Under the pieces are notes generated by a model. The model was not told the origin of the DNA. It saw only the letters and a list, made by a program, of their open reading frames with translations, and ran no database searches. A stretch of 64,000 nt of DNA from Gautieria morchelliformis (Eukaryota > Basidiomycota > Agaricomycetes > Gomphales > Gomphaceae), in assembly GCA_015179125.1 (NCBI GenBank), contig WHVA01000121.1, forward strand, positions 1 through 64,000. Reading direction: 5' to 3'. Both the position numbers and the translations under genes were made by a program. Shown here piece after piece: positions 454 to 22,217 of the stretch (its first letter is position 1; every line of letters starts with the position of its first letter).

Positions 454-2111
454 CCATCCTCCAAGCTCCAGTGCAGGGTAACCCACTACCCTTCAAAAGG
501 ATATGCCTGACTGCAAGTATTCTGCCCTGTGACCTGGTGTCATGCAAATCACAAAATGGTATGCATTGCCACTTTCAGGTTCATCATCGCTGCAATCACT
601 GCAATCATCTGTCTCAATATCTTGGTTAAGGAATACACCAATGAACTGTATATACTTATTTGGAGAGTCCCTGAAGTCATTGAGCTTCTTGAGATGTACT
701 GCACCTATTGATTGCATGCCATTTGCTGGAATGATAAGCTGGACACAATGGAGGTGTGCAACTTCCCATCCTGTTCTGCTAGGATAACACACAATTTTTG
801 CCAGTTTAATATATTGACACAACCAATCTTTGTTTGACAGAGATATGTGTGAATCTGCAAGCATGGGAGTATGGATATCAGGCAGCAGCTGTCACAAAAG
901 GCTGCAAACCACACTGTGACACAGGAAACGCCAAGGTGTCATGTCTGGAAGGTCTTGAGCAAGCTATCTCAGCATGGAGAAGACCTGCTGCTTGACAAGA
1001 GGTGGAACTGTCAATGGGAATCACGTGCTTATGCACATGCGAGCACATGATCAGTACATCCAGGCAAGCCACGCAATATTCTTCCAAAGGTGTGAACACC
1101 ACGAACTTGCTGCTACAACTCAACACAGTCATTTCTAAAGCTACCAGCTGGCCATCTTCAGTGTGGTGATTAATGGCTACCAGGTCAGTGATTTTCACAT
1201 ACTGCTATGAGGCCTAAGGGTTTGCTTATGACACATCAGCCATTGTGACAAACAGTTTGCAACAGTTGAACAGCTATCCAGGGGACCATATCCTTTGCTT
1301 TCAGCCACTCTTTCAATCTGCACAACTTCTTCTGTATCTCCGGCAAAGGCAGCCTCCAAGTAGTCATGGTCAAGTGATCCTTTGGAAGGTGCATAATCAA
1401 AAAAATGGTGTCGATTAATAGCTGAGTCGTAATGTTCACAGCTAGAGGATTGAATTTCCCACATTCACTTGTCAAATCACAGTATCAGCTGCCAGATGTT
1501 CACAACTCACCAGACAAACATGTCGGCTTTGTTGTCAAAATTCAAGAGCAATCTACCCTCACAGAGTTGGTTTGTGGTCTTCTGACCCCTTCTCTCTCTG
1601 TCAACAAGCAGGGAACAAGCCTTACCAGCATCTCACTTCTCCAGTGTAAGGTCAGTTGGTTCACACAGTAGAGCACCACAGCCACATTTGTGCAGGGCAT
1701 GCAGGTAGGCCACAGTTCACTCCAAAATGGTATGAGTGTCTGAGCTTGAAAGTGCTCAGACACCTCTATCTATCGCGAGGCACAGTTTAAGTAGCTGGCG
1801 AGTTGCATGTGTGTGTGGTTGGCGAAGTACATCAACAAGTGCTTTCAGGAATACTGTGTAGGAACCAGCTTTCTAGTTTAAAAATCTCGAAAAAAAAAGC
1901 ATTAAAAAGTCTGTAAAAGCCTTTTTCCCATCTTAACATCAGCCAATACATGCAGCTTTGATGGGGAACTGTTTTTAGAATATTCCTTGAATTTTCTTGC
2001 ATTTTTTCGCCAATTGTCCTGACCTCCTTGGCTCAAAACTGCTTTATTGTGTTTGACAAAGGCTATGAACCCATGAGAGTCCATAACTTTGTCATCGGCG
2101 CTCAATTTCAA
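454..2111 (-). pseudogene. Unrecognised minus-strand coding remnant
   Basis: Several minus-strand open stretches follow one another (about 2111-1902, 1763-1542, 1464-1195, 1198-878, 864-493) with protein-like composition. One example is a segment with an acidic DDCSDCSDDEPES stretch before a stop near 493. They could be exons of one decayed gene or captured sequence. I recognise no domain, and there is no convincing start or full set of splice sites. It could equally be a fragment of an unfamiliar transposon protein. Confidence 0.3.
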
Positions 2112-2438
2112 ACTCCGAACGGAGCGATCCTCGAACGCGCTTATTCAGAGCCGCACGTCCTCAAACACCCACAACTCCGACACTTTGGCTCTTTCAATCT
2201 CAGCTGGTGAGATTGGGAATATCCGGTGCAGCTTACACAAGCCTGTACACTTAAATATAGTTCAAACCCAGCAGACACATGACTTGCCTCATAGCAACCA
2301 TGGCTGTGTAAGGCTGTGTGCAAGACTGCCCAATGATATGCAGAGCCAAAACTAGGGTGCATAATCAAGCAATCTTATTGGATGCTGAGCCTCCAAGCTT
2401 AGTGCCACAACCCCTGAAATAGGACCCTTGACATCATA

Positions 2439-2508
2439 GGGCTGTGCAGGGCTATGCAGGGCTATGCAAGGCTATGCTGGGCTGTGTAAGGCTATGCTGG
2501 GCAGTGCA
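2439..2508. repeat. Short tandem repeat, GGGCTATGCA-like unit of about 10-11 bp
   Basis: About seven imperfect copies of GGGCTATGCA / GGGCTGTGTA stand in a row between the decayed coding region and the first Helitron. No gene is visible from 2112 to 2661. Confidence 0.7.
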
Positions 2509-2770
2509 AATCAGGGAAGGTGATTGGCTATCTATTCTTAATTTCCTTGCACAAACACACCACTATAGTTACGAGGGTGTGTTTTAGCTGCGCAAATATT
2601 TACTTATGACATCACTCGCCTAATAGATAGAAGCTCCCCATTTTATGTAATCCTGTGTAATTCCTATAGGTGAAAGCGGCTCGGTGGGTTGTGGGCGTCG
2701 AGCTTATGTCAGGTTTTAGGTCAGCCTTAGTCAGCTGGCCAATCGGATGCGAGCGGCGCAGCCGCGAGCC

Positions 2771-3168
2771 AAGAACGCTGCGCAGCATGGTCACGTGACC
2801 GTTTGCGTTCCAAATTAGGTCAGCGGCGAGCGGCGCAGCCGCGAGCATAGAACGCTGCGCAGCGGTCACGTGACCCGTTCGCGACCAGAGCGCACATACG
2901 CGAGCGTGGTCCGTGCACTACACGCGCGCGCGGTATAAAGGCCGAATGGTAAGGAGGGAACGCCAGGACAAGAACGCTGCGCAGCATGGTCAGGTGACCG
3001 TTTGCGTTCCAAATTAGGTCAGCGGCGAGCGGCGCAGCCGCGAGCATAGAACACTGCGCAGCGGTCACGTGACCCGTTCGCGACCAGAGCGCGCATACGC
3101 GAGCGTGGTCCGTGCACTACACGCGCGCGCGGTATAAAGGCCGAATGGTAAGGAGGGAACGCCAGGAA
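2771..3168 (+). promoter_or_regulatory. Tandemly duplicated promoter-like cassette with E-box and TATA
   Basis: Two copies of a roughly 199-bp block follow each other. Each has GGTCACGTGACC-type E-box sequence (CACGTG), GC-rich CGCG runs, and a TATAAAG box (2934-2940 and 3133-3139), followed by a pyrimidine-rich CTGTCTGCT leader. Related cassettes lie near the 5' end of the other units (TATA at about 8662, 12439, 14735 and 17559). Promoter function is inferred from motif order. Confidence 0.5.
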
Positions 3169-3689
3169 CCTGCCCAACCGCCGATTCCTCTGTCTGCTGT
3201 CTGCTATGTGCTCTGTCTGCTCTGTCTGCTCTGTCTGCTCTGTGCTCTGCTGTCTGCTCTGGGTGCTGTCTCCTCCTTTAGCTGGCTGCCTGTCTATTGC
3301 TTTGCTGGCTTTCTATTGGTAGGTAATATGTTTTGTTTAATGCATTGCCATGTATTTTATTTTATTTGTGTTTGTAATTTTATTAGTTCTTTTTTTTTTC
3401 ATCATAGTATTGTCACATGTGTATTATATTTTGGTGATTTCTTTCAAAAATAGATTTAAATACCTTCCAAAGACTGCTGAAAAAAATGTATTTTAATATC
3501 AATATTTTTCAGGTTTTTTTCCAAAATAGACATCAATAAGTTCCCTCTAAAATTAATGAGATTCTGCTTTTAAATGTGGTTTGTTTTATTGTTTTATTTA
3601 CTGTAAAGCCACTTACCAGCCACTCCTCTCTGGCTATACTGGTGGCCGGCTTACTATGGCTTTGGCTGGGCTCTGGGTTTCTCTGTCAG

Positions 3690-4060
3690 TCTCAGGGCTT
3701 CTCTGGCTTTGGCTGGGCATTAATAACAGCCTCTGCTTCAATGTACTGTACTTTTTTGACATTTTTTCGCAGATAGATGTCAATAAATTATCCTGACTTT
3801 GTGAAAATTGTCAGCTTAAATGTACAGTGCATTTTTTTGACATTTTTCAAAAATAGATAATCTTGACTCTGCTAAAATTAATAACAACTTCAGCTTAAAT
3901 GTACTGAACATTTATTTTGACATTTTTTGAAAAATAGATAATCCTGACTTTGCTAAAATTAATGACAACAGCTGCTTAAATATGGCTTCCTTTACTATTT
4001 TATTTATGTCTGTATATGTCACAAAATAGATATTGATACATGTCCCTGAGTTTGCGAAAA
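3690..4060. repeat. AT-rich tandem repeats, about 80-90 bp unit
   Basis: Three to four imperfect copies of a module containing TTTTTTGACATTTTTTCG, AATAGAT, then TCCTGACTTTGCTAAAATTAATGACAACAGC. Equivalent blocks occur at 9310-9650, 12590-13090, 15310-15640 and 17710-18200, each upstream of a minisatellite. No coding signal. Confidence 0.75.
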
Positions 4061-4129
4061 GTTAATGATAAGTAACAACCCCTGCTCGCTTCACTTTGAA
4101 GCCCTTGGGGATATACTACACATGCCATT

Positions 4130-4765
4130 GGGACATGCTATGCATGCTATACTTGAGGGGCATGCTACACACACTAACATGCATGCTATGCATGGGGACA
4201 CACACGCTATGCTTGGGGACACCCATGTTATGCGTGGAGACACACATGTTATGCATGGGGACAAGCATGCTATGCATGGGGATGTGCACACTATATGTGG
4301 GGACACACTATGCTTGGGGGACATGGTACAAACAAGGGACACACTACAGGGGAATACACTACAAACACGGGACATTCTACACATGCTATACTTGGGGGAC
4401 ATGCTACAAACAAAGGACATGCTATGCACACTATACTTGGGGGACATGTTATGCATTGGGGACACACTTTGCACACTATACTTGAGGGGGATGCTACACA
4501 CACTACATGGAGGCACATGCTATGTTTGGGGACATGCTACAAACCAGGGACATGCTATGCATGTGGGACACGCCATGCACACTGTACTTGGGGATATGCA
4601 ACATGTGGAGACACACTATGCATGGAGGACATGCTACACACACTATACTTGGGGACATGTTATATGTGGGCCAGGGACACAATAAGCATGCTATATTCGA
4701 GGCTATGCATGGAGGACATGCTATGCACGCTATACTTGGGCACATGCAGATATGTGTAGAGACAT
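4130..4765. repeat. Minisatellite, about 21-bp unit (GGGGACAYGCWATGC type)
   Basis: Direct tandem repeats of GGGGACACRCATGYTATGC variants. The unit is a multiple of three, so translation gives a seven-residue repeat (HAMHGDT type), and several frames stay open by accident. I do not regard those frames as genes. Confidence 0.85.
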
Positions 4766-4891
4766 TACCTATCTTGATGTGTTACTTATAGCTACTTTCA
4801 ATTGCAATGAGATGTGTTTTACTTATCCCAAGTTTGATTTACCCAATGCGTTTGACCTACACCCCCGTGTGAAGCATGGGTATCCACCTAG
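4766..4891 (+). mobile_element. Internal Helitron 3' terminus in alpha-1
   Basis: The region repeats the common Helitron tail: TTACCTATCTTGATGTGTTACTTA, TTTGACCTA, a hairpin with wobble pairs (CCCGTGT-GAA-GCATGGG), TATCCACCTAG. It is followed directly by LTR sequence (AGGTAAGGGTTC), which in alpha-3 lies well inside an LTR. The Helitron that ended here therefore sits in an LTR that was itself inside another unit. Confidence 0.7.
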
Positions 4892-6197
4892 AGGTAAGGG
4901 TTCAACAATCGAGTTAAGTTGGATATCAGAAATCGAGTTGGAAGGCAGACGTCAGAGAGACAGAGGCCTTGCAAGTACTTGCTGTGGTAAGAATAGGAAA
5001 CAGTGCAAAGGGAGTCACATATCAAAGTCAATTATCTGATTGCAGAATAGAGGCACACATGACTGGGTTTTATACAAAGAGCTGAGACAACATGTCAGAA
5101 GGTAGAGGTAAGCAATTCCAGTGCAAGCAAAAGTAACTAGGATAAATGGAGTAAGTAACTAATACGGAACAAGAGGAACTACAAGGGGGTGCCGGGTAGA
5201 ACTAAGAACAATCAGTAGGCAAAAGAACAAGGGGAATGTGGGTCTAATTGATTGTTACGTATTGGAATTCCCAGAGGTCGGAACTGGAAAGGACAACGGC
5301 TTCAACTTATGTGTTGCGCCCCTGATGAACTACCGTCCTAAGTATTTCGGGATTGACTTGCGGATATCGGAGAAGGCAGAAGTCGGGAACAGAGTACTGA
5401 GAGTCGAGGTTCGAGGGTCGGAGAACAAAGGTCAGAAGAGGCGGAAGAGGCGGAGGACAGAGGGTCGAGAGCGGAAGGAGACAAGACTAGCAAAACTCGC
5501 TGTGCTAAGAACAGGAGACAGTGCGAAGGGAATCACGTATTGAAGTTGATTATCTGATTGCAGGAACGGAGACATACATGAGGGGGTTTTATACAAAGAG
5601 CTGAAGCAACAGGTAATGGTATGGTACTAAGCAAATTCTGGAGAGTGCAGGAATCGGATAGACATACAGGGCAAGTAACTAATGCGGAACAATGGGATGA
5701 CAAGGGGGGTGCAGGGTAGGGTAAGTAGAATGGCAAAGAACAAGGCGAGTATGTACAATAGGCCTCGGAAGAAACGGAATTACGGAAATGGTATCTTGCT
5801 GTGTTCAGGGTTGAGTACGGGGGCCGGTATCTGGAGGTGGCCAGGGGTACTGAAATCACCAGGGTCGAGGTAGAGGGTTGCAGATGGTGCGGATGTTGTG
5901 GAATAGAGTCGGAGGTGGTGCGGAGGCGGTGCAGAGGTGGTGCGGAGGATATGCGGATATGGTGGAGATGGTTGAGCGGAACAGTCGTAACATTGATAGT
6001 GGAACAAATGGATCTCCTGATGCTCCGGACTTGCTATGCTAAGGGTCAAGTAGGGAAGGCCGGTGAATAGAGTCAAACAGGGAAGTATGTGAATAGTAAA
6101 GAACAAGGGGATCAAAAGGTCAAAGTGTGGACATTGTGGAATAGAGCCAGAGGAGGCATGGAGGTACCAGAGTTGGTCAAGCAGCATGGTCATAACA
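4892..6197 (+). mobile_element. Older solo-LTR remnant, interrupted by a younger solo LTR
   Basis: Bases 4892-5252 and 5998-6197 align with the intact solo LTR at 16537-17214. The right end GGTCATAACA is followed by TTACC, the same target word that flanks the 16537 copy on both sides. The LTR at 5253-5992 splits it. Fossil, Ty3/gypsy-type LTR by comparison with the other copies, although no coding part is present. Confidence 0.65.
5253..5992 (+). mobile_element. Solo LTR nested in an older LTR, target duplication TTGAT
   Basis: Begins TGTTACGTATTGG and ends AGTCGTAACA. It is flanked by TTGAT at 5248-5252 and 5993-5997. The uninterrupted site AATTGATAGCAAAACAAATGG is present in the LTR at 16537-17214, which confirms the insertion. 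About 740 bp, same family as 49738-50430 (opposite strand) and 21206-21854. Confidence 0.85.
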
Positions 6198-6697
6198 TTA
6201 CCTACCTTGATGTGTTACTTAGAGCTACTTTCAATCAATAAAATGTGTTTTACTTATCTGAATGAAATTTTCTTATCCAAATGTGTTTGACTTATCCCAA
6301 GTTTGATTTACCCAAGGTGTTTGACCTTGCTGATGCGTTTGACCTTACCGAGGCGTTTGACTTGCACCCCCGCGCGAAGCGCGGGTATCCACCTAGTCTA
6401 AGAGTTAAACACGGGGGGTGGGTGGTTGTGGGCGGTGCTTATGTCAGGTTTTAGGTCAGCATTGGTCAGCTGGCCAATCGGACGCGAGCGGCGCAGCCGC
6501 GAGCCAAGAACGCTGCGCAGCAGCACCGGTTCAAGCGCCCAACTGGCCACATCCGGCGACCGGTCGCTGCTTCAGACCGAGCGGTCTGCCGTTCCTCCGC
6601 AGGAACGCACAGCTGTGCAGCGTGCTGGCTCTCTCTCTCTCTCTCTGCCACTGGCTATCTCTCTCCTCTTGCTGGCTTTCTCTGTCTGTGCCTTCCA

Positions 6698-7015
6698 GGC
6701 TCTCATCACTGCACCTGGTGGGTTTTCTTTGCCATTGATTGTTGCTTTTTTATCTTCTTTTTTATCTTCTTTTTTATTGCTAATATTTTCGCTTTTTTAT
6801 TCATTTTCTGACTGCTTTTCAGCATAGGTTGCTCCTCTCACTGCCTCCCCATCCTTCCTGGCTCTCATCACTGCCCCTGGTGGGTTTTCCTTGCCATTGA
6901 TTGTTGCTTTTTTATCTTCTTTTTTATCTTCTTTTTTATTGCTAATATTTTCGCTTTTTTATTCATTTTCTGACTGCTTTTCAGCATAGGTTGCTCCTCT
7001 CACTGCCTCCCCATC
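6698..7015 (+). repeat. Two tandem intron-like modules of 162 bp
   Basis: Each copy has CCTG|GTGGGTTTT at its left, a T-rich body, and GACTGCTTTTCAG|CATAGG at its right, with a 30-40 base exon-like spacer (TTGCTCCTCTCACTGCCTCC) between. The second copy runs into the helicase frame. Splice-site use is inferred, not shown. Confidence 0.6.
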
Positions 7016-8302
7016 GGTGGCGCCGGGAAATCATTCACATGGAACACTCTAATCCACTCCTGTAGAGCGGAGAGCCTCATTGTGATTGCAGTAGCCTCAT
7101 CTGCAATGGCTGCCCTTATCCTCACTAAGGGTACAACCTCTCATAGCATGCTTGGAATTCCCATTCCTGTCCATGAGCGCTCTTTCTCCTCCATCAAAAA
7201 GAACTCTGACAAGGCTGACATGCTGAGACGGGCCAGTCTCCTCATCTGGGATGAGGCTGCAATGCAGCATCGCCATGCCATAGAGGCCATTGACAGGACA
7301 CTGAGGGATTTCCTTGACCAGCCTGACAGACCCTTTGGTGGCATCACAGTCGCCTTTGGAGGTGACTTTCAGCAGACTCTCCCAATTGTCCCTAAAGGCT
7401 CCAAGGAGGATATCGTGGGAGCTACCCTTCAGAAGTCATATCTGTGGCCAAAGATCAATGTCCTCCATCTGACAGAGAACATGCGGGTGAGAAATGACCC
7501 TGACAGAGCCAGGTTTGCAGAATGGCTGCAGAATGTGGGCCAGGGAAAGGATCTCCCACTAGATCATACGTTCTCACTCCCTCCTCACATGGTTTGTGGC
7601 CCTGGAATTGAAGATCTGATCCAGGAAATATACCCTGGCATTGGCAATCATGTCCCTGCCCAGGACAATTACTTTTTGGAGCGTGCCATCCTCTGTGCCA
7701 GAAACACTGAAGTCAATGAGATCAATTCCATGGTGTTTAGGGAGTTTCCAGGTGATGCTCAGGTCTTGCACTGTGCAAATTCCATTGAAGAATCCGACGA
7801 TGCAGATCGGTATCCTGTGGAGTATCTGAATTCCATAGAGATGGGCTGTCTTCCTCCTGCTCGCTTGGAAGTCAAGCCTGGAGTGCCTCTGATGCTGTTG
7901 CGCAATTTGGATCAGAAGCAAGGACTATGCAATGGGACAAGGTTGTGGTTGGTGAGGATAAGCATTAGAGTGTTGGAGGTCAGGATCATCTCAGGTCCAT
8001 GTGCAGGCAATATTGCTTTCATCCCCAGGATCATCATTAAGCCATCAGAGGGAGAGTTGCCATTTGTGCTGCAAAGGAGGCAGTTTCCAGTGCGTTTGGC
8101 ATTTGCAATGACTATCAACAAGTCTCAAGGACAGTCTTTGGGTATGGTTGGGCTGGACCTGAGATATCCAGTGTTTGGACATGGTCAGTTGTATGTTGGT
8201 GTATCAAGAGGGACCAACTGGAACAGAGTGAAGGTCTTGCTTGAGGAGGGTTTGGACACAACCAACATTGTATATAAAGATGTATTACTTAGAGCTCCTT
8301 GA
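7016..8302 (+). CDS. Helitron Pif1-type DNA helicase, C-terminal part
   Basis: The open frame encodes the ATPase/helicase part of a Helitron RepHel protein, which in this family unwinds DNA during rolling-circle transposition in the nucleus. Visible motifs in order: Walker A GGAGKS at its very start, Walker B IWDEAAM, motif III AFGGDFQQTLPIV, LTENMRV, then FAMTINKSQGQSL and LYVGVSRGTNWNRV near the end. The product ends IVYKDVLLRAP. About 430 residues are readable; full-length proteins of the family usually exceed 1,200 residues, and the Rep endonuclease is missing. There is no ATG at the start; the frame enters from an upstream AG at 6984. The helicase part is unbroken, but the gene is not autonomous. 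Confidence 0.88.
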   Translation, partial: GGAGKSFTWNTLIHSCRAESLIVIAVASSAMAALILTKGTTSHSMLGIPIPVHERSFSSIKKNSDKADMLRRASLLIWDEAAMQHRHAIEAIDRTLRDFLDQPDRPFGGITVAFGGDFQQTLPIVPKGSKEDIVGATLQKSYLWPKINVLHLTENMRVRNDPDRARFAEWLQNVGQGKDLPLDHTFSLPPHMVCGPGIEDLIQEIYPGIGNHVPAQDNYFLERAILCARNTEVNEINSMVFREFPGDAQVLHCANSIEESDDADRYPVEYLNSIEMGCLPPARLEVKPGVPLMLLRNLDQKQGLCNGTRLWLVRISIRVLEVRIISGPCAGNIAFIPRIIIKPSEGELPFVLQRRQFPVRLAFAMTINKSQGQSLGMVGLDLRYPVFGHGQLYVGVSRGTNWNRVKVLLEEGLDTTNIVYKDVLLRAP

Positions 8303-9309
8303 TTTTTTTATATCCACTTCTCTTCATATGGTTTATGTGTGTTACTTGATTTTACTTGATGCAAATTGGTTACTTTTATTTTCCCCAATGCACTTGACCT
8401 TACCGATGCGTTTGACCTACACCCCCGCGCGAAGCGCGGGTACCCACCTAGTTCCTATAGGTGAAAGTAGCACGGTGGGAGGTTGTGGGCGTGCTTACAA
8501 ATAATATTACGTAAAACTTATGTCAGCGGCGAGCGGCGCAGCCGCGAGCACCAACGCTGCGCAGCGGTCACGTGACCGGCAGACCGGCGCGAAGCTGCGC
8601 AGCAGCGTCCGCGGTCACGTGACCCGTTCGCGCGTGGTCCGTGCACAACACGCGTGCGCGGTATATAAAGGCAGTTCGGTAGGATGGAACGCCAGGAATC
8701 TGCCTGACCGGCAATTCCTCACTCTGCTGTCTGCTCTCTCTGCTGTCTGCTCTCTGCTGTGTCTGCTGTCTGCTGTGTCTGCGCTGTCTGCGCTGTCTGC
8801 TCTCTGCTCTGTCTGCTGTGTCTGCGCTCTCTGGTGTCTCCTCCTTGAGCTGGCTGGCTGTCAATGGCTTTGGTTGGCTGGCTTTCTATTGGCTTGGCTG
8901 GCTTTCTATTGGTAAGTAATATCTCTTTTTTAATGCATTCCCATGTATTTTATTTTATTTGTGTTTGTAATTTTATTGGTTCCATTTTTTTTTTCATCAT
9001 ATTGTATTGTCACATGTACTTTATATTTGTGTGAATTTTTTCGAAAAATAGATTTAAATAAAATCCCAAGACTGCTGAAAAAAAGTATTTTTATATATAT
9101 ATTTTTCAGGTTTTTTTCGAAAATTGACAGTTTCCTCTAAAATTAATGACAAAAGGTTCTACTTTTAAATGTGGTTTTTGTTGTTTTATTTACTGTAAAG
9201 CTGTCAGGCACTCCTTCTCTGGCTATACTGGTGTGTTACTATGGCTTTGGCTGGCCTCTGGGTTTCTCTGTCAGTCTCTGGGCTTCTCTGGCTTGGGCTG
9301 GGCATTAAT

Positions 9310-9650
9310 AACAGCTTCTGCTTCAATGTACTGTACTTTTTTGGCATTTTTTCACAAATAGATGTCAATAAATTATCCTGACTTTGTGAAAATTGACAAC
9401 AGCTCCAGGTTAAATGTACAGTGCATTTTTTTGACATTTTTCGAAAAATAGATAATCTTGACTCTGCTAAAATTAATAATAACTTCAGCTTAAATGTACT
9501 GGACATTTGTTTTGACATTTTTCAAAAAATAGATAATCCTGACTTTGCTAAAATTAATGACAGCAGCTGCTTAAATATGGCCTCCTTTACTATTTTATTT
9601 ATATCTGTATGTCACAAAATAGATATTGATACATGTCCCTGAGTTTGCTA
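9310..9650. repeat. AT-rich tandem repeats of alpha-2
   Basis: Same 80-90 bp module as at 3690-4060, with shared blocks TTTTTTGACATTTTTC and CCTGACTTTGCTAAAATTAATGA. Confidence 0.75.
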
Positions 9651-9719
9651 GAAGTTAATGAAAAGACAGCCTCTGCTTGCTTCACTTTGAGGCCCTTGGG
9701 ATATGCTACACATGCCATT

Positions 9720-10585
9720 GGGACATGCTACACCCACTATGCATGGGCACACGCACACTATGCATGGAGACACATATGTTATGCATGGAGACATGCATGT
9801 TAGGCATGAAGACATGCATGTTATGCGTGGAGACATGCATGTTAGGTGTGGAGACATGCACGTTAGGCGTGGAGACATGCACGTTAGGCGTGGAGACATG
9901 CATGTTGTGCATGGGGACACGCATGCTATGCTTGGGGACATGCATGTTATGCGTAGAGACACACTGTTATGCATGGGGACAAGCATGCTATGCATGGGCA
10001 CACACACACTATGCATGGGGATGTGCACACTATATGGTGGGATACACTATGCTTGGGGACATACTATGCTTGGGGACAGACACTATGCTTGGGGGACATG
10101 GTACAAACAGGGGACACACTACACACACTATGCATGGGGAACACACTACAAGACGGGACATTCTACACATGCTATACCAGGGGACACACTACAAACAAAG
10201 GGCATGCTATGCACACTACACTTGGGGGACATGTTATGCATGGGGGACACACTTTGCACACTATACTTGAGGCAGATGCTACACACACTACATGTAGGGA
10301 CATGCTACACATGTGGACATGCTATGCATGGGGGACACACATGCTATAATTTAGGGGCACGCTACATTTGGGGACATGCTACAAACCAGGGACATGCTAC
10401 ATGTGGAGACAGACTATGCATGGAGGACGTGCTACGCACACTATACTTGGGGACATGTTATGTGTGGGGTCATGTTACAAACCAGGCACACAATAAGCAT
10501 GCTATATTTGAGGGACACACTGTGCATGGAGGACATGCTATGCACACTATACTTGGGCACATGCAGACATATGTAGAGACATTAC
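9720..10585. repeat. Minisatellite of alpha-2, about 21-bp unit
   Basis: Tandem GGAGACATGCATGTTATGCGT variants. It is longer than the alpha-1 array, with a very regular block at about 9765-9910. Long open frames here are a by-product of the repeat. Confidence 0.85.
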
Positions 10586-10739
10586 CTATCGTGATGTGTT
10601 ACTTATAGCTACTTTCAATGGCAATGAGATGTGTTTTACTTATCCCAAGTTTGATTTACCCATTTGACCTTGCTGATGCATTTCACCTTACCGAGGTGTT
10701 TGACCTACACCCCCATGCGAAGCATGGGTATCCACCTAG

Positions 10740-12044
10740 AGGTAAGGGTTCAAGAATTGAGTTAAGTTGGATATCAGAAATCGAGGTGGAAGGCAGAGGT
10801 CAGAGAGACAGAGGCCTTGCAAGTACTTGCTGTGGTAAGAACAGGAAACAGTGCAAAGGGAGTCATATATTCAAGTCAATTATCTGATTGCAAAACAGAG
10901 GCACACATGACTGGGTTTTATACAAAGAGCTGAGATAACATGTCAGAAGGTAGAGGTAAGCAATTCCAGTGCAAGCAAAAGTAACTAGGATAAATGGAGT
11001 AAGTAACTAATACGGAACAAGAGGAACTACAAGGGGGTGCCGGGTAGAACTAAGAACAATCAATAGGCAAAAGAACAAGGGGAATGTGGGTCTAATTGAT
11101 TGTTACGTATCGGAATTCCCAGAGGTTGGAACTGGAAAGGACAACGGCTTCAACTTATGTGTTGCGCCCCTGATGAACTACCATCCTAAGTATTTCGGGA
11201 TTGACTTGCGGATATCGGAGAAGGCAGAAGTTGGGAACAGAGTACTGAGAGTTGAGGTTCGAGGGTCGGAGAACAAAGGTCGGAGGAGGCGGAAGAGGCA
11301 GAGGACAGGGGATCGAGAGCGGAGGGAGACAAGACTAGCAAAACTCGCTGTGCTAAGAACAGGAGACAGTGCGAAGGGAATCACGTATCAAAGTTGATTA
11401 TCTGATTGCAGAAATGGAGACATACATGAGGGGGTTTTATACAAACAGCTGAAGCAACAGGTAATAGTATGGTACTAAGCAAATTCCGGAGAGTGCGGGA
11501 ATCGGAGAGACATACGGGCCAAGTAACTAATGCGGAACAATGGGATGACAAGGGGGGGCAGGGTAGGGTAAGTACAATGGCAAAGAACAAGGCGAGTAAG
11601 TACAATAGGCATTGGAAGAAACAGAATTACGGAAATGGTATCTTGCTGTGTTCAGGGTTGAGTACAGGGGTCGGTATCTGGAGGTGGCCAGGGGTACTGA
11701 AATCACAAGGGTCGAGGTAGAGGGTTGCGGATGGTGCAGATGTTGCGGAATAGAGTTGGAGGTGGTGCGGAGGCGGTGCAGAGGTGGTGCGGAGGATATG
11801 CGGATATGGCGGAGATGGTTGAGCGGAACAGTTGTAACATTGATAGTGGAACAAATGGATCTCCTGATGCTCTGGACTTGCTATGCTAAGGCTCAAGTAG
11901 GGAAGGCCGGTGAATAGAGTCAAAAGGGGAAGTATGTGAATAGTAAAGAACAAGGGGATCAAAAGGTCAAAGTGTGGACATGGCGGAATAGAGCCAGAGG
12001 AGCCATGGGGGTACCAGAGTTGGTCGAGCAGCATGGTCATAACA
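10740..12044 (+). mobile_element. Older solo-LTR remnant in alpha-2, split by a younger LTR
   Basis: Parallel to 4892-6197. It starts immediately after the internal CTAG with AGGTAAGGGTTCAAG and ends GGTCATAACA followed by TTACC. It is split by the LTR at 11101-11839. Confidence 0.65.
11101..11839 (+). mobile_element. Solo LTR nested in alpha-2, target duplication TTGAT
   Basis: TGTTACGTATCGG...GTTGTAACA with TTGAT on both sides (11096-11100 and 11840-11844). It occupies the same site as 5253-5992, so it was copied with the unit rather than inserted independently. Confidence 0.85.
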
Positions 12045-12438
12045 TTACCTACCTTCAATCAATAAGATGTGTTTTACTTATCTGAATGAAATTTTCTTAT
12101 CCAAATGTGTTTGACTTATCCCAAGTTTGATTTACCCAAGGTGTTTGACCTTACCGATGCGTTTGACCTTACCGAGGCGTTTGACTTGCACCCCCGCGCG
12201 AAGCGCGGGTATCCACCTAGTCTAAGAGTGAAACGCGCTCAGTGGGTTGTGGGCGCACCGCTGACAAATAATGTTACGTAAAAATTAGGTCAGCGGAGCG
12301 AGCGGCGCAGCCGCGAGCCCTAGGCCCCTGGCCCAGGCCAGACCATTGACGCCGCGCAGCAGCGTCCCAGGTCACGTGACCGGTTCGCGTTCGTCGCGAC
12401 CATACGCGAGGGTGGTCCGTGCACGACCCTTCGCTTGG

Positions 12439-12445
12439 TATAAAG
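12439..12445 (+). promoter_or_regulatory. TATA box of the beta promoter cassette
   Basis: TATAAAG follows a CACGTGACC E-box and GGTCCGTGCACGAC. The same order occurs in beta-3 (TATA 17559-17565) and, in the alpha form, at 14735. Function inferred. Confidence 0.45.
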
Positions 12446-13109
12446 AGAGCGATGCTGCAGAACCGCACTCCCCACTGGTGTCTTCCTGTGTTCTGGCTGT
12501 ACTGGTGGGCTTACTATTGCTTTGGCTGGGCTCTGGGTGTCTTTGTGTGTGTCTCTGGGTGTCTCTGGGCTTCTCTGGCTGTGAATTGACACCAGCTTCT
12601 GCTTCAATGTCCTGTATATTTTTTTGATATTTTTTCGCAAATACATATCAATAAACCTAACTTGCTAACCTTAACAATAGTCAACTTACATATCCTGTAC
12701 ATTTTTCGATATTTTTTCGCAAATAGACATCAATAAATCTAACTGGCTAACCTCAGCCACCTTAACTATCCTGTAAATTTTTTTGACATTTTTTCGCAAA
12801 TGGATATCAATAACTTATACTGACTTTGCTCAAGTTGATAACAACATCTGTTTTAATGTAGTGTGTTTTTTTTTATCTTTTTTTGAAAAATAAATATACA
12901 TATTAATGAATTATCCTGACTTTGCTAAAATTAATACCAGCTTCAGGGTAAATGTACTGTACATTTTTTGACATTTTTTCAAAAGGTAGATATCAATGAA
13001 TTTTCCAGGCTTTGCTAAAATTAATGACAACAGCTGCTTAAATGTGGTTTCTTTTGCTATTTTATTTATGTCTATATAAATAGATACCAATACATGTCCC
13101 TGATATGTG

Positions 13110-13990
13110 TGAGGACATGTTACGTGTGAGGACACGCTACCTGTGGGGACACGCTACCTGTGGGGACACGCTACCTGTGAGGACACGTTACCTGTGAGGA
13201 CACGCTACCTGTGGGGACATGCTACCTGTGAGGACACGTTACGTGTGAGGACACACTACCTTTGAGGACACGTTATGTGTGGGGACACACTACCTGTGAG
13301 GACACGTTACGTGTGGGGACACGCTACCTGTGAGGACACGTTACGTGCGGGGACACGCTACCTGTGAGGACAGGTTACATGTGGGGAGTGGGGACACGTT
13401 ATGTGTGGGGACATGCTACCTGTGAGGACACGTTATGTGCAGGGACACACTACCTGTGAGGACATGTTACGTGTGGGGAGTGGGGACACGTTATGTGTGG
13501 GGACATGCTACCTGTGAGGACACGTTACGTGTGGGGACACGCTACCTGTGAGGACACGTTACGTGTGGGGAGTGGGGACACGTTATGTGTGGGGACACGC
13601 TACCTGTGAGGACACGTTATGTGCGGGGACACGCTACCTGTGGGGACACATTACCTGTGAGGACACGCTACATTTGGGGACACACTACCTGTGAGGACAT
13701 GTTACCTGTGGGGACACGCTACCTGTGAGGACACGCTACCTGTGAGGACACGCTACCTGTGAGGACATGCTACCTGTGGGGACACATTACCTGTGAGGAC
13801 ACGCTACGTTTGGGGACACGCTACCTGTGAGGACACGTTACGTGTGGGGACACGCTACCTGTGAGGACACGTTACGTGTGGGGACATGCTACCTGTGAGG
13901 ACATGCTACCTGTGAGGACACGCTACCTGTGGGGACACGTTACGTTTGGGGACAGGCTACCTGTGAGGACACGTTACGTGTGAGGACATG
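13110..13990. repeat. Minisatellite of beta-2, 18-bp unit
   Basis: About 48 copies of GGGGACACGCTACCTGTG / GAGGACACGTTACGTGTG. There are two higher-order insertions where GTGGGGAGTGGGGACACG recurs. The unit differs in length and sequence from the alpha arrays, but the GGGGACA core is shared. Confidence 0.9.
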
Positions 13991-14335
13991 CTATCCAACT
14001 GCACTTTGGGTCTTCCCCCATTTCTGATTTTGGTATTGTTTCTGGTTCTGTGAGAGTGTCACCGGAGGATCAGCTGGCATATTGATGTAACCACATTGTC
14101 AACATTCAGGATCCCCAAGATCACTATTGGATCTATTTCACAATGCACAAGCTTTGAAACCTGTTGATTATGACAATAGGCGCAATCTTATAATCTCTGA
14201 TGATTCAGTCAAGACTATTACCACTTTCATGTCTAGAGTCGCTGGGAGGCCCATCCCAGAGGTCGAGAGAGAGCTCTGCATGTTCGGCTGTTCCATGGGT
14301 GCATACATGATTCATGATACTATATGATCAGGGAT
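13990..14335 (+). other. Captured or relic segment shared by beta-2 and beta-3
   Basis: A 345-bp non-repetitive block lies between the minisatellite and the Helitron tail and is nearly identical at 18960-19305. It holds a 66-codon open frame (14127-14327, start MDLFHNAQALKP) that I do not recognise. It may be a captured host fragment or a relic of a Helitron protein. Both copies keep the frame open. Confidence 0.5.
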
Positions 14336-15714
14336 ATATTTTGCATGATCCTATTTACCCTAATGCACTTGACCTTACTGATTCACTTGACCTTACTGAT
14401 GCATTGACCTTACCAAGGCGCTTGACCTACACCCCCGCGTGAAGCGCGGGTACCCACCTAGTTACACTATATGAAAGCGCCTCGGTGGGTTGTGGGCGTC
14501 GAGCTTATGTCAGGTTTTAGGTCAGCCTTAGTCAGCTGGCCAATCGGACGCGAGCAGCGCAGCCGCGAGCCAAGAATGCTGCGCAGCAGGGTCACGTGAC
14601 CGTTTGCGTTCCAAATTAGGTCAGCCGCGAGCGGCGCAGCCGCGAGCATAGAACGCTGCGCAGTGGTCACGTGACCCGTTCGCGACCAGAGCGCGCATAC
14701 GCGAGCGTGGTCCGTGCACGACACGCACGTGCGGTATAAAGGCCGAACGGTAAGGAGGGAACGCCAGGAACCTGCCCAACCGGTGATTCCTCTGTCTGCT
14801 GTCTGCTGTCTGCTGTTGGCTGTCTGCTCTGTCTGCTGTCTGCTCTCTGTGCTGTCTGCTGTCTGCTGTCTCCTCCTTTAGCTGGCTGGCTGTCTATTGC
14901 TTTGGCTGGCTGGCTATCTATTGGCTTGGCAGGCTTTCTATTGGTAGGTAATATCTTTTTTTTTAAATGCATTGCCATGTATTTAATTTTATTTGTGTTG
15001 GTACTTTTATTGGTTCCTTCTTTTTTCATCATATAGTATTGTCACATGTGCATTATTTTTGTCATTTTTTTTGAAAAAATGTATTTTAATATCAATATTT
15101 TTCAGGTTTTTTTTGAAAATAGACATCAATAAGTTTCCTCTAAAATTAATGACAATAGATTCTGCGTTTTATTGTGGTTTGTTTTATTGTTTTATTTACT
15201 GTAAAGCTGCTTACCAGCCACTCCTCTCTGGCTATACTGGTGGCTGGCTTACTATGGCTTTGGCTGGGCTCTGGGTTTCTCTGTCAGTCTCTGGGCTTCT
15301 CTGGCTTTGGCTGGGCATTAATAACAGCTTCTGCTTCAATGTACTGTACTTTTTTGACATTTTTTTTGCAAATAGATATCAATAAATTATTTTGTGAAAA
15401 TTGACAACAGCTCCAGGTTACATGTACAGTGCATTTTTTTGACATTTTTTGAAAGATAGATAATCCTAAAATTAATAACAGCTTCTGCTTACATGTACTG
15501 GACATTTTCTTGACATTTTTTCGAAGAATAGATAATCCTCACTTTGCTAAAATTAATGACAGCAGCTGCTTAAATATGGTTCCTTGACTATTTTATTTAT
15601 GTCTGTATATGTCACAAAATAGATATTGATACATGTCCCTGAGTTTGCAAGTAGTAACAGCCTCTGCTTGCTTCACTTTGAGGCCCTTGGGGATATGCTA
15701 CACATACCATTGGG

Positions 15715-16525
15715 ACATGCTACACACACTATGCATGGGGACACGCATGTTATGCATGGAGGCATGCATGTTATGCGTGGGGACATGCAAGCTATGCATG
15801 GAGACATGCATGTTATGCGTGGGGACACTCACGCTATGCTTGGGGATACGCACACTATGCGTGGAGACATGCATGTTATGTGTGGGGACACGCACCCTAT
15901 GCTTGGGGACATGTACGCTATGCATGGGGACATGCATGTTACATGTGGGGACACACTATTCTTGGGGACAGACGGGCTATGCATGGGGACACACACACTA
16001 TGAGTGGGGACACACGATGCTTGGGGACAGACACACTATGGGGGACACGATACAAACAAGAGACACGTTACACACACTATGTGTGGGGAAAACACTACAA
16101 ACAGGGACATTCTACACATGCTATACTTGGGGGACATGTTATGCATGGGGGACACACTTTGCACACTATACTTGAGGGAGAGGCTACACACACTATGTGT
16201 AGGGAGATGCTACACATGTGGACACGCTATGCATGGGGACACACATGCTATAATTTAGGGACATGCTACACACAAAATACTTGAGGGATATGTTATGCAT
16301 GTGGGACATGCCACACACACGGTACTTGGGGACATGCTGCATGTGGGGACACACTATCCACACTATACTTGGGGACACAGTACATGTGGGGACATGCCAC
16401 CTGTGAGGACACGCTACGTGTGAGGATGCGATATGTGTGAGGACAGATGAAGTGTGATGACACACTACAGGTGAGGACATGCTACACATGAGGTAGGGGA
16501 CACACAGACATGGGAGAAATGTGTA
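15715..16525. repeat. Minisatellite of alpha-3
   Basis: Tandem GGGGACATGCATGTTATGCGT-type units that become irregular after about 16000. The repeat gives long accidental open frames. Confidence 0.85.
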
Positions 16526-16536
16526 GAGTCATTACC

Positions 16537-17214
16537 TGTTATGTATTGGGTTTGGCTCTAAAAGGACTGCGGCTTCAACTTATATGTTGCGCCCCCAACT
16601 ATCATCCTAAGTATTTTGGAGATTGGAGATCGGAAGTTGGAAGAGGTCAAGTATTATAACGGAAGAGGTAAGGGTTCAAGAATTAAGTGAAGTTGGATAT
16701 CAGAAATTGAGTTGGAAGACGGAGGTCAGAGAGACAGAGGCCTTGCAAGTACTTGCTCTGCTAAAAATAGGGAACAGTGCAAAGGGAGTCACGTATTAAA
16801 GTTGATTATCTAATTGTAGAACAGAGGCATACATGACTGGGTTTTATACATAGAGCTGAGACAACATGTCAGAAGGTAGAGAGGTAAGCAATTCCAGTGC
16901 AAGTGAAAGTCACTAGGATACATGGAGTAAGTAACTAATGTGGAACAAGAGGAACTACCAGGGGGTGCAGGGTAGAACTAAGAACGATGGGCAAAAGAAC
17001 AAGGGGTGTGTAGGTCTAATTGATAGCAAAACAAATGGAACTTCTGATGATCCAGACTTGCTGTGCTGACAGTTGAGTACGGAAGGCCGGTGAATACGGA
17101 AGCATGTGAATAGGAAAGAACAAGGGGATCAAAAGGTCAAAGTGCAGACGTTGCGGAATAGAGTTGGAGGAGGTGTGGAGGTACTGGAGTTGGTCAACCA
17201 GTATGGTCATAACA
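16537..17214 (+). mobile_element. Solo LTR with target duplication TTACC
   Basis: TGTTATGTATTGGG...GGTCATAACA, 678 bp, flanked by TTACC at 16532-16536 and 17215-17219. This is the intact reference for the broken LTR copies in alpha-1 and alpha-2, and it also shows the empty site for the nested younger LTR. Confidence 0.88.
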
Positions 17215-18219
17215 TTACCTACCTTGGAATGTGTTTGACTTATCCCAAGGTTGATTCACCCAATGTGTTTGACCTTGCTGATGCATTTGACCTTACCGAT
17301 GCATTTGACTTGCACCCCCGCACGAAGCACGGGTATCCACCTAGTCTAAGAGTGAAACGGGGGCAGTGGGTTGTGGGCGCCACTGACTAATAATGTTACG
17401 TAAAAATTAGGTCAGCGGAGCGAGCGGCGCAGCCACAAGCCCTAGGCCCCTGGCCCAGGCCAGACCATTGACGCTGCGCAGCAGCGTCCCAGGTCACGTG
17501 ACCGGTTCGCGTTCGTCGCGACCATACGCGAGTGGTCCGTGCACGACCCTTTGCTCGGTATAAAGAGAGCGATGCTGCAGAACCGCACTCCCCACTGGTG
17601 TCTTCCTGTGTTCTGGCTGTGCTGGTGGGCTTACTATTGCTTTGGCTGGGCTCTGGGTGTCTTTGTGTGTGTCTCTGGGTGTCTCTGGGCTTCTCTGGCT
17701 GTGAATTGACACCAGCTTCTGCTTCAATTCCTGTATATTTTTTTGATATTTTTTCGCAAATACATATCAATAAACCTAACTTATTAATAGCCAACTTAAT
17801 TATCATGTACATTTTTTTGATATTTTTTCGCAAATAGACATCAATAAATCTAACTTGCTAACCTTAATCACTGCCAACTTAAATATCCTGTACATTTTTT
17901 TGATATTTTTTCGCAAGTAGATATCAATAACTTATTCTGACTTGGCTAAAGTTAATAACAACTTCTGTTTTAATGTAGTGTGTTTTCTTTTTATCTTTTT
18001 TTGAAAAATAAATATAGATATCAATGAATTATCCTGACTTTGCTAAACTTTGTACCAGCTTCAGCTTAAATGTAGTGTACATTTTTTTGACATTTTTCAA
18101 AAGGTAGATATCAATAAATTATCCTGACTTTGCTAAAATTAATGACAACAGCTGCTTAAATGTGGTTTCTTTTGCTATTGTATATATGTCACAAAATAGA
18201 TACTGATACATGTCCCTGA

Positions 18220-18965
18220 TATGTGTGAGGACACGTTACGTTTGGGGACATGCTACCTGTGAGGACACGCTACCTGTGAGGACATGTTATGTGTGGGGAC
18301 ACGCTACCTGTGGGGACACGTTACGTGTGGGGACATGACCTGTGAGGACACGTTACATGTGGGGACACGCTACCGGTGGGGACACATTACGTGTGGGGAC
18401 ATGCTACCTGTGAGGACATGCTACCTGTGGGGACACACTACCTGTGGGGACACATTACGTGTGGGGACATGCTACCTGTGAGGACACGTTGCGTGTGGGG
18501 ACACGCTGCCTGTGAGGACATGTTACGTGTGGGACATGTTATGTGTGGGGACACGTTACATGTGAGGACACACTACCAGTGGAGACATGTTACGTGTGGG
18601 GACACGCTACCGGTGGGGACACGTTACATGTGGGGACACGCTACCGGTGGGGACATGCTACCGGTGGGGACACGCTACCTGTGGGGACACGCTACCTGTG
18701 AGGACACGTTATGTGTGGGGACACGCTACCTGTGAGGACACGTTACGTGTGGGGACACACTACCTGTGAGCACACGTTACGTGTGAGGACACACTACCTG
18801 TGGGGACACGTTACATGTGAGGACACGTTACGTGTGGGACATGTTATGTGTGGGACATGTTTTGTGTGGGGACACGTTATGTGTGAGGACACCCTACCTG
18901 TGGGGACACGTTACGTGTGAGGACATACTACCTGTGAGGACATGTTACGTGTGAGGACATGCTAT
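18220..18965. repeat. Minisatellite of beta-3, 18-bp unit
   Basis: About 40 copies of GGGGACACGCTACCTGTG-like units with GACACGCTACCGGTGGGG variants not seen in beta-2, so the array has diverged or turned over since the duplication. Confidence 0.9.
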
Positions 18966-19305
18966 CCAACTGCACTTTGGGTCTTCCCCCATTTCTGATT
19001 TTGGCATTGTTTCTGGTTCTGTGAGTGTCACCGGAGGATCAGCTGGCATATCAATATAACCACATTGTCAAAATTCAGGATCCCCAAGATCACTATTGGA
19101 TCTATTTCACAATGCACAAGCTTTGAAACCTGTTGATTATGACAATAGGCGCAATCTTATAATCTCTGATGATTCAGTCAAGACTATTACCACTTTCATG
19201 TCTAGAGTCGCTGGGAGGCCCATCCCAGAGGTCGAGAGAGAGCTCTGCATGTTCGGCTGTTCCATGGGTGCATACATGATTCATGATACTATGTGATCAG
19301 GGATA
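18960..19305 (+). other. Second copy of the 345-bp beta segment
   Basis: Nearly identical to 13990-14335, with only a handful of differences by eye. The 66-codon open frame lies at 19096-19296. Confidence 0.5.
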
Positions 19306-19334
19306 TATTTTGCATGATCCTATTTACCCCAATG

Positions 19335-19490
19335 CACTTGACCTTACTGATTCACTTGACCTTACTGATGCATTTGACCTTACCAAGGTGTTTGACCTTA
19401 CTGATGCATTTGACCTTACTGATGCATTTGACCTTACTGATGCATTTGACCTTACCGATGCATTTGACCTTACCAAGGCGCTTGACCTAC
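19335..19490 (+). repeat. Iteron-like 18-bp repeats upstream of the Helitron 3' hairpin
   Basis: Nine copies of an 18-mer of the form TTGACCTTACYGATGCA run up to the terminal hairpin. Other units have two to four copies at the same place (for example 6305-6365, 8390-8420 and 14360-14425). Confidence 0.7.
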
Positions 19491-19969
19491 ACCCCCGCGC
19501 GAAGCGCGGGTACCCACCTAGTCAATAGTATAAAGATGGGCACGTGGGTGCTTGTGGGGGTGTTCGCGTTTTACGTAATCCTGACTAAGACGCAAACAAA
19601 CCACGCATCCAACTTTCTACTGGCGAGCGGCCCTGGTCACGTGACCAGTTCGCGTCCAACGCTGCTGCGCGCGCGCGCACCTTCCCTCAACCCTCCTGCT
19701 GCCATTTCCTCTGGTCAACTGGCAACCTCTGGCTCTCCTGCCCACTGTCTCTGTGCCTGCTGGATCTGTCTGTCTGCTGCTGGATCTGTTCTGCTGCTGG
19801 ATCTCTGTGTCTGCTACTGGATCTCTGTGTCTGCTGCTGGATCTTTGTGTCTGCTGCTGGCTCTCTCTGTGTCTGGCTCTCTCTGTGTCTGCTACTAGCT
19901 TTCTCTGTGTCTGGCTCTTTCTGTGTCTGTTACTGGGGCTCTCTGTCTCTCTACAGTCCCCTCAGGTAA

Positions 19970-20760
19970 ATATTTTCGCTTTTTTATCCTCTTTTGACTT
20001 CTTTTCACCCTAGGCTGCTCCTCTCATAGCCTCCCACCTTTCTTGATGGTTATTACTGGCTTTGGTGTGTTTTTTCCTATCATATCTATCATTTCCTCCA
20101 ATAATTTTCGCTTTTTTATCCTCTTTTTGTCTTCTTTTCAGCACCCTCTCTCAATGCCTCCCACCTTGCCTGTCTGGTATTGCTGCATCTGGTATGTGTC
20201 TTGCTATCATGTTTTGATATTTATTAGAATCAGCTTCTCTCCATGGTAAATATTGCTATTTCTTGCTATAATTTTCGCTTTTTTAATCTCTGTTTGACTT
20301 CTTTTCAGCTTAGGTTGCTCCTCTCATTGCCTCCACCTTGCTTGGTCATCACTACTGCCTCCTGTGTGTTCTTTCCTTATCATATCTGTCATTTCTTCCC
20401 CTAGTTTTCGCTTTTTTATCCTCTTTTTGCCATCTTTTCAGCCCAGGTTCCTCCTCTCAGTGCCTCCCACCTTTCCTGTCTGCCATTGCTGCATCTGGTG
20501 TGTGTCATGCTATCATATTTGTGTTGTTTTGACATTTATTAGGATTAGCTTCTCTCCATGGTATTTCTTTCAACATTTTCGCTTTTTTAACCACTTTTTG
20601 ACTTCCTTTCAGCCTGGACTGCTCCTCTTATTGCCTCCCACATTTCTTGATCATCATCACTGCCTGTGGTGTGTTTTTTTCTGACATTTCTTGCAATAAG
20701 TTTTCGCTTTTTTATCCTCTTTTTTTGTTTATTTTTTTTTATCTAGCCCAGGTTCAGGGC
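19970..20760 (+). repeat. Tandem intron-like modules, about 130-165 bp each
   Basis: Six copies of TTTTCGCTTTTTTATCCTC, TTGACTTCTTTTCAG, a 50-60 base segment containing CTCCTCTCATTGCCTCCCAC, and a GTGTGT or GTATGT donor-like word. Each therefore looks like a short exon plus a GT...AG intron. It is the same module family as 6698-7015. Confidence 0.6.
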
Positions 20761-21074
20761 TCCCACCATTCCTGTGTGTAGTATGTTTCTTGCTCTCATA
20801 TCTCCTTTTTTGATAGTTATTAGGATCAGTGTCTCTTTTTTTTTAATTGTTATTTATCTATTTTTATTTATTTTTTATGTATATATATACTGTATATTTG
20901 TCAAAATAGATATCAAAAAATTTCCTTGACTTTGCTAAAAAATTAATGACAACAGTCTCTGCTTGCAAAATATAAGTCTATTTCTCTATTATCCATTGTA
21001 AACCCTCTGACATTTATTTATTTTCTCTGCCCCTACAATAAGTTCACTTTTAGGCTCTTAGGGTTATGCTACAC

Positions 21075-22075
21075 ACTACAAACAAGGGACATGCTCTGCA
21101 CACTATACTTGGGGGACATGCTACACTCGGGGGACATGCTACACTCGGGGGACATGCTACACATGGGAGATACACTACAAACAAGAGACATGCTATGCAC
21201 AAGGGTGTTATGTATTGTGATTCCCGGAAGTTGGAACTAGAAAGGACGGTGGCTTCAACCTATGTGTTGCGTCCCCAATGAACTATTGTCCTAAGTATTT
21301 CGGATTGTAAGTCAGAAGTCGGAAAGTATCAAAGTAAGTTAAAGGCCAAGAGTTAAGTTGGAAGGCGGAAGGCTAAGAGATGGAGGTGCTGTGCTACTCG
21401 CTATGCTAAGAGCAGGAGATAGAGCAAAGGAAATCATGTATCGAAGGTGATTATCTGATTCCAGAATAACGAGCATACGTGAGGCCTTTCATACAAAGAG
21501 CTGAGACAACAGGTAATCGGGTAGTACTAAGCATATTCCAAAGAAAGTGGAAGTCGGATAAGATATATGGGGTAAGTAACTAATTGAGAACAAAGGACTA
21601 CAAGGGGGTGCAGGGTAGAGTCAAGAACAATGGGCAAAAGAACAAGGGGACAGAAAGCATATCTGACATAACAGAACAATGGGACTCCAGAGGGGCTGGC
21701 CATATGGTCTTGCTGTGCTGCGAGTTGAGTCTGGTGCAAGTAATAGAGTCGAAAGAAGAAAGGATATAACAAGGGGTGGGATTGTCAGAATTACTGGGAT
21801 GTCGGAAAGGAGGCAGAACTGAGTGTCAGAAGTTGGAAATGCAGGGTCATAACAAAGGGACATAATACACATGATATACTTGGGAGACACACTACGCATG
21901 GGGGACACACTACACATGGGAGAGACCTTACACATGGGGAACACGCTACAAATGGGGAACACGCTACACATGGGGAACATGCTATGCACACTATACTTGC
22001 GGGACACACTACACTCTGGGAACACATGCCATACATAGGGACATGCTACCCATGAGGGGCACACAGACATGGGAG
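21075..22075. repeat. Minisatellite of gamma, split by a solo LTR
   Basis: GGGGGACATGCTACACTC-type repeats at about 21075-21200 continue at 21860-22075 after the LTR insertion. Confidence 0.75.
21206..21854 (+). mobile_element. Solo LTR with target duplication AAGGG
   Basis: TGTTATGTATTGTG...GGGTCATAACA, 649 bp, with AAGGG at 21201-21205 and 21855-21859. Same family as 16537-17214. Confidence 0.87.
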
Positions 22076-22217
22076 AAATGGGTGGTGATATTACCTACCC
22101 TGATGCATTATTTAGAGCTACTTTCAATTGTGATAAGATGTGTTTTACTTATCTGAATGATTGTACTTATCCCAAGTTTTATTTACCCAATGTGTTGGAC
22201 CTAACCACGGGTATCCA

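Follow-up and report, generated by a model that had tools for sequence, protein, structure and literature searches.

Head-to-tail Helitron arrays in Gautieria morchelliformis: joining that is mostly not copying, with evidence favouring insertion at the 5′ boundary of resident elements

Why do Helitrons stand end to end? In the first 64 kb of contig WHVA01000121.1 of the basidiomycete Gautieria morchelliformis (contig C140 of an assembly of 122 Mb in 1,113 contigs; these 64 kb are called the window below), seven Helitrons in one orientation span positions 2661–22533. Head-to-tail Helitrons have hitherto been interpreted as remnants of rolling-circle concatemers, and a sequence-only reading of the window had described the row as three alpha+beta dimers that seemed to have been copied. 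The hundreds of joints between different partners in this genome make the question countable. Our results indicate that most joints did not arise by copying, and they tilt toward insertion at the 5′ boundary of a resident element.

All seven units have the canonical 3′ end, CTAG behind a GC hairpin located 11–12 nt from the end. In units 1–6 the hairpin is followed by TAYCCACCTAG, always on the same strand, and each of these six tails abuts the head of the next unit with zero bases between them. Beta units and unit 7 start with TC, alpha units with TT, and the heads of units 1–6 alternate between the TT-type (alpha) and the TCTAAGAG-type (beta). On the forward strand the units are alpha-1 (unit 1, 2661–6396, 3736 bp; head TTCCTATAGGTGAAAGC, tail GGGTATCCACCTAG), beta-1 (unit 2, 6397–8451, 2055 bp; head TCTAAGAG, tail GGGTACCCACCTAG, helicase body), alpha-2 (unit 3, 8452–12220, 3769 bp), beta-2 (unit 4, 12221–14461, 2241 bp, with a 17-bp minisatellite), alpha-3 (unit 5, 14462–17344, 2883 bp; head TTACACTATATGAAAG), beta-3 (unit 6, 17345–19521, 2177 bp, also with a 17-bp minisatellite) and unit 7 (19522–22533, 3012 bp; head TCAATAGTATAAAG, tail a hairpin followed by CTATTGGCTAG). 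The 5′ boundary of alpha-1 and the 3′ boundary of unit 7 were taken from the empty site described below. These boundaries bear out the sequence-only reading in its description of six same-strand units, each CTAG running directly into the next head, and of two alternating head types. Its alpha starts shift, the TT lying one base earlier in alpha-1 (2661) and alpha-2 (8452). Its array (2662–19521) is right for six units and stops short of the seventh, which continues to 22533 and was overlooked because its tail ends in CTATTGGCTAG, not in CCACCTAG.

The array splits in two a high-copy repeat some 1.5 kb long, with TG...CA ends. The 5′ part of this repeat (TGTGTAGG..., 1855–2660, forward strand) is 98.6–99% identical to the intact copies L080–L083 and is preceded by AATAC; the 3′ part (TTTACAATATAAAAGG...CAAAACA, 22534–23230, forward strand) is 98% identical to L080, L082 and L083 and 92% to L081, and is followed by AATAC. 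The window copy therefore carries a 5-bp target duplication; of the four other copies, three have perfect 5-bp duplications and the fourth has one with a single mismatch. Given these ends and duplications, the repeat is a solo long terminal repeat (LTR). At the array position the four uninterrupted copies read TGTGTAA^TTTACAATATAAAAGG (the caret marks the point of insertion), so the whole array occupies a single A^T and is inserted there without target duplication (TGTGTAA^TTTACAAT). Compared with the four other copies, the window LTR has private changes at only 2 of 804 and 4 of 681 aligned sites, which makes it a young LTR, and the Helitron units, singly or together, arrived after it. A search with the left flank found no allele of the array among the best 40 of 441 candidates, which were scored.

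Pairwise comparison of the units, named beforehand as the test of whether whole dimers had been copied, gave conflicting relationships. Alpha-1 and alpha-2 are nearest overall (90.9% identity, and 98.3% over the last 120 bp); the first 120 bp of alpha-1, however, match alpha-3 at 92.5% and alpha-2 at only 73.1%. On the beta side the nearest units are beta-2 and beta-3 (92.2%), whereas the body of beta-1 is 45–46% identical to either of them and just its ends are shared, with 64–67 bp of tail at 92%. Alpha relationships thus pair dimers 1 and 2, and beta relationships pair dimers 2 and 3. We therefore reject whole-dimer duplication for this array, and the three dimers proposed earlier are not homologous. 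A simple rolling-circle concatemer, in which neighbours should be the same element, is rejected by the same comparison: types alternate, the beta-1 body is different, and the two halves are uncorrelated (see below). Two details of the sequence-only reading were reproduced, namely an internal old-tail junction common to alpha-1 and alpha-2 (95% over 100 bp) and a segment shared by beta-2 and beta-3 and absent from the other units of the array (97.8% over 371 bp). The junction, offered as evidence of dimer copying, is a subfamily mark present also on C560, C652 and C981, and hence no proof of it. The decayed inner tail at this junction (4884–4891 in alpha-1, 10732–10739 in alpha-2) is followed by AGGTAAGGG in place of T; it looks like an old, bypassed end whose role was taken over by a later downstream end.

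The same question was put to joints elsewhere in the genome. A search with the alpha-2/beta-2 joint returned 29 junction-spanning matches, of which 28 were usable after the loss of L054; they are the best-scoring of 2202 candidates (40 scored), a sample close to alpha-2/beta-2. Over these 28 junctions, alpha-side and beta-side distances were uncorrelated (r −0.08, reached by 1462 of 2000 permutations), as were blocks straddling the joint (r −0.03, reached by 1289 of 2000). Power checks gave r 0.56 for neighbouring blocks within beta (reached by 5 of 2000 permutations) and r 0.39 for blocks within the alpha tail (reached by 0 of 2000). In L049 and L056 the alpha ends are identical and the beta heads 6.8% apart, and one beta lineage is found both solo and behind tails, as near-identical sisters. 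Because unit relationships conflict in the window and no correlation is seen across the 28 joints, the data support serial independent insertion, which had been among the mechanisms offered at the outset. Some copying does occur: 8 of the 28 junctions share their nearest neighbour on both sides, where about one is expected (permutation fraction 0.0002). One copied pair belongs to a tandem duplication on C560 (period 7,002 bp, 99.7% identity) whose left breakpoint falls inside alpha. Another lies in C652:53000–63729 and C981:158300–169000, which share 10.7 kb at 98.9% including flanks, so some haplotypic or segmental copies persist in the assembly. Helitron pairing thus appears mostly independent, with a minority of pairs elsewhere copied.

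How common such joints are can be read from exact matches. The tail/beta-head joint CCACCTAGTCTAAGAG has 358 matches in the genome and its reversed control none, so that the joint is not due to chance. Strict beta heads number 410 and strict tails 910 (the tail search requires A, C or T at +11); joint, beta-head and strict-tail fractions rest on the first 100 listed by contig rather than on all 358, 410 and 910. Directly behind an exact CCACCTAG stand 69 of the first 100 beta heads. Among the first 100 strict tails, 99 are followed directly by T, 71 enter a head at first count and 74 run into a head or head fragment after the remaining flanks were read (one of the 74, on C78, meets just 8 bases of a head, behind which another head stands). 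For alpha heads, by our own count, 80 exact joints were found among 95 places with CCACCTAG at most 12 bases from TAGGTGAAAGC. End-to-end packing is the usual state of Helitrons in these listings. Behind TATCC tails, which the alpha units of the window have, stand 18 beta and 13 alpha-like heads, and behind TACCC tails 8 and 23, respectively, a modest excess of heterotypic neighbours (odds ratio 4, P 0.02).

A joint alone cannot separate insertion behind a tail (G^T) from insertion before a head (A^T), a limit already pointed out for maize in the cited passages of PMC2267711. Where Helitrons lie at non-Helitron sites, A precedes the head in 93% of 46 distinct alpha flanks; of 26 solo beta heads, 24 follow an A, one a T and one a G. 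G^T is therefore hardly used elsewhere. The flank set comprised 83 rows and 71 distinct flanks, 15 of which were set aside by the filter as Helitron-related; the 56 distinct non-Helitron flanks are AT-rich at +3 to +11, on the 3′ side. Resident heads are themselves hit: at seven places (C102, C188, C263, C612, C656, C723 and C1103) a newcomer's tail is followed by what is left of a resident head, interrupted at an internal A^T, and 4 or 5 further head-site insertions are in inverted orientation. The corresponding search for a cut at TA^TCC inside the tail, covering TATCC tails and CCACCTAG-ended newcomers, gave 0 matches at up to one mismatch. In a search that excludes heads with G at −12, and hence those directly behind strict tails, one (TTCCTA)2 repeat recurs in front of six alpha heads (e.g. 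C188:50543, C334:127302, C452:82685), which may represent a lengthened-head lineage or old nested insertions; we did not count (TTCCTA) repeats as nested head insertions, the remnant CTAG followed by TAGGTGAAAGC being found in 1 of 95 matches.

The LTR that hosts the array offers a second view of target choice. Its site TTACAATATAAAAGG matches the head TTACACTATATGAAAG in 10 of the first 13 bases, by eye, and in five LTR copies, that of the window included, a Helitron tail immediately precedes it (one orientation examined). The left flank of this site precedes heads at C1009, at C179 and at C204 (the last judged by its similarity to the C157 flank), and an insertion on C231 lies five bases from it. 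Altogether, LTR copies with Helitrons at the TATA-like TTACAATATAAAAGG were noted on C140, C157, C171, C348, C992, C1009, C179, C204 and C231. At this hot spot no upstream tail is present to attract a newcomer.

We consider it somewhat more probable than not that the array arose as Helitrons inserted one after another, all in one orientation, at the ends of resident Helitrons, most likely at the A^T before a resident head. Each Helitron would move separately, a newcomer inserting at the ends of Helitrons already there. The target A^T would be made up of the host base before the resident head and the first T of the resident, and the head, a T followed by about 12 AT-rich, TATA-like bases, would resemble the preferred target. 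Targets prefer an AT-rich 3′ side and a head supplies such a stretch, which supports the head as a landing site. The newcomer would come to lie directly upstream, its CTAG fused to the resident head, and repetition would make the array grow in the 5′ direction, with the last unit the oldest. The head may attract either as melted, TATA-like target DNA or through transposase binding or nicking there; the LTR hot spot favours the former. Beyond the exact joints across the genome, the empty site, the mostly independent pairing, the A^T rule and the insertions at heads and LTR sites, which are observed, we infer the 5′ order of arrival and the role of the head itself as the attractant.

Several results weigh against growth by insertion before heads. 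The order of arrival is not seen directly, as no site turned up that varies in the presence of one unit. In maize, as far as the cited passages of PMC2267711 go, three lines carry just the upstream unit of an adjacent pair, which means most simply that the downstream unit came second, at G^T. In the Gautieria genome, TATCC tails lead into a head more often than TACCC tails (41 of 49 versus 33 of 51, P 0.04), a difference that insertion at tails would explain more simply, and insertions inside heads are few relative to exact joints. The age tests, by contrast, favour insertion before heads, with reservations. Terminal branches of beta heads are longer behind a tail (median 0.0090, n = 32) than in solo heads (median 0.0020, n = 26; P 0.007). 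This test omits 23 junction heads that a DNA query had selected and 3 heads near a tail, and was enlarged after weaker first rounds (P 0.37, then P 0.16, or 0.09 without long branches); one of the 20 stretches added, L146, contributed no head. The older junction heads could reflect purging of insertions in host DNA. Host-facing tails should then be young; instead they are, if anything, older (median 0.0082, n = 8, versus 0.0032, n = 17; P 0.12, not significant). Against the model, the 300-bp tail region of alpha-3 has a long terminal branch (0.0875), though the LTR around the array has few private changes. The tail test, which set aside the odd tails L038, L054 and L087 and nine internal ones and has one host-facing case among TATCC tails, itself leans toward 5′ growth, as this predicts older host-facing tails. 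Private substitutions on the left and right of the 28 junctions lean to older right sides, a comparison confounded by family diversity.

Insertion behind the tail is the mirror image of this process: newcomers would enter at the CTAG^T of a resident, cleaved by the transposase at the end of transposition, and arrays would grow in the 3′ direction. It accounts for base-exact, same-orientation joints, for the maize lines with the upstream unit alone and for the more frequent heads behind TATCC tails. We nevertheless hold it to be unlikely, although it deserves serious attention: it requires G^T where solo heads are preceded by A, leaves the LTR hot spot and the lack of cuts inside TATCC tails unexplained, and sits badly with junction heads that look older rather than younger or equal. 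Alternatively, mixed multimers could form by rolling-circle joining of one 3′ end to the 5′ end of another element, or by tail bypass, and integrate in a single event. The passages cited from PMC4778049 describe Helraiser circles with exact CTAG/TC joints, and the uniform orientation of the array and its position at one A^T of a young LTR suit this idea. No near-identical second long copy was found, however, the best match to the alpha-2/beta-2 joint being 94% over 1,021 bp (40 of 2202 scored), and neither older junction heads nor insertions in heads are predicted; such multimers are improbable. We would rate slightly lower still a version in which the transposase joins the ends of different Helitrons in trans before integration and chains of up to seven integrate at once. 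If true, composite elements could arise, and sequences be shuffled, by a path other than the known bypass of ends.

Building of the array by unequal crossing-over or segmental duplication of an alpha+beta dimer draws on processes seen in this genome on C560 and on C652/C981, on the 8 of 28 junctions with shared neighbours and on the excess of heterotypic neighbours. In the window, however, the relationships among alpha units disagree with those among beta units, beta-1 is an element of another kind, and across the 28 junctions no correlation crosses the joint, so that this explanation is very improbable here. An assembly artefact is the one we find hardest to credit: the units are repetitive and the array is known from the assembly, not from reads, but base-exact joints at element ends occur by the hundred, and the LTR picks up again precisely at the empty-site position, flanked on the outside by target duplications that match.

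The units differ in content. Beta-1 has an open frame of 406 codons (7082–8302, forward strand) that matches PIF1 helicase (PF05970, E 6e-51; PF21530, E 6e-18), a type expected in autonomous Helitrons, and is presumably the C-terminal part of a Helitron-type helicase. The 17-bp minisatellites have about 51 copies in beta-2 (13108–13993) and about 44 in beta-3 (18224–18959), and alpha units carry 21-bp arrays; Helitron-borne minisatellites of similar repeat unit vary in length among units. Tandem duplications of 199 bp (98%) and 162 bp (98%) occur in alpha-1 (2770–3167) and beta-1 (6691–7015), respectively. Behind their heads, over the first ~125 bp (2661–2790 and 6397–6525), alpha-1 and beta-1 are 94% identical over 101 bp and differ in the remainder, and for this reason ends and bodies seem to have been exchanged between Helitron types. 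The rest of the window is largely made up of retroelement frames with Pfam matches, Gypsy-type (RVT_1, RNase H, integrase) and two copia-type (RVT_2), at 44180–46696, 53453–57732 and 60484–62705.

Head-to-tail Helitrons have been described in bat, Drosophila, rice and maize (as cited in the passages of PMC5148889). The closest case is an adjacent pair in the maize r1 region, ascribed to consecutive insertions with their order left open in the cited part of PMC2267711; there too CTAG runs straight into the next head with a G/T joint, and the units differ in content, but it is a single pair, whereas here a seven-unit array and hundreds of joints allow tests of independence and end choice. Bat and plant arrays with equally perfect head-to-tail joints were read as support for rolling-circle copying (cited in passages of PMC2267711 and PMC5876387) and discussed there as tandem repeats or concatemers; in G. 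morchelliformis neighbours differ in type and their histories are uncorrelated. According to passages of PMC5148889, Fusarium and Metarhizium Helitrons have inserted at or into the 5′ end of another, a self-insertion proposed there to make composite elements; those are isolated cases with non-canonical, Helitron2-like ends, unlike the canonical CTAG ends and the majority of units in our listed samples. Helraiser shares the A^T target, an AT-rich preference strongest on the 3′ side and circles with an exact CTAG/TC joint; the passages in question (PMC4778049, PMC5876387) state that clustering near donor sites was not seen and do not report targeting of resident ends. Pleurotus Helitrons land in AT-rich regions already occupied by Helitrons, as stated in the cited part of PMC4289320. 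In the portions of the open-licence literature covered, we found no report of such packing for most sampled units or of tests of partner independence.

If insertion at resident ends is indeed the rule, the Helitrons of this genome would be landing sites for one another. They would thereby concentrate away from host genes, and composite elements would be set up for read-through capture. The same tests can be applied to any well-assembled Helitron-rich genome.

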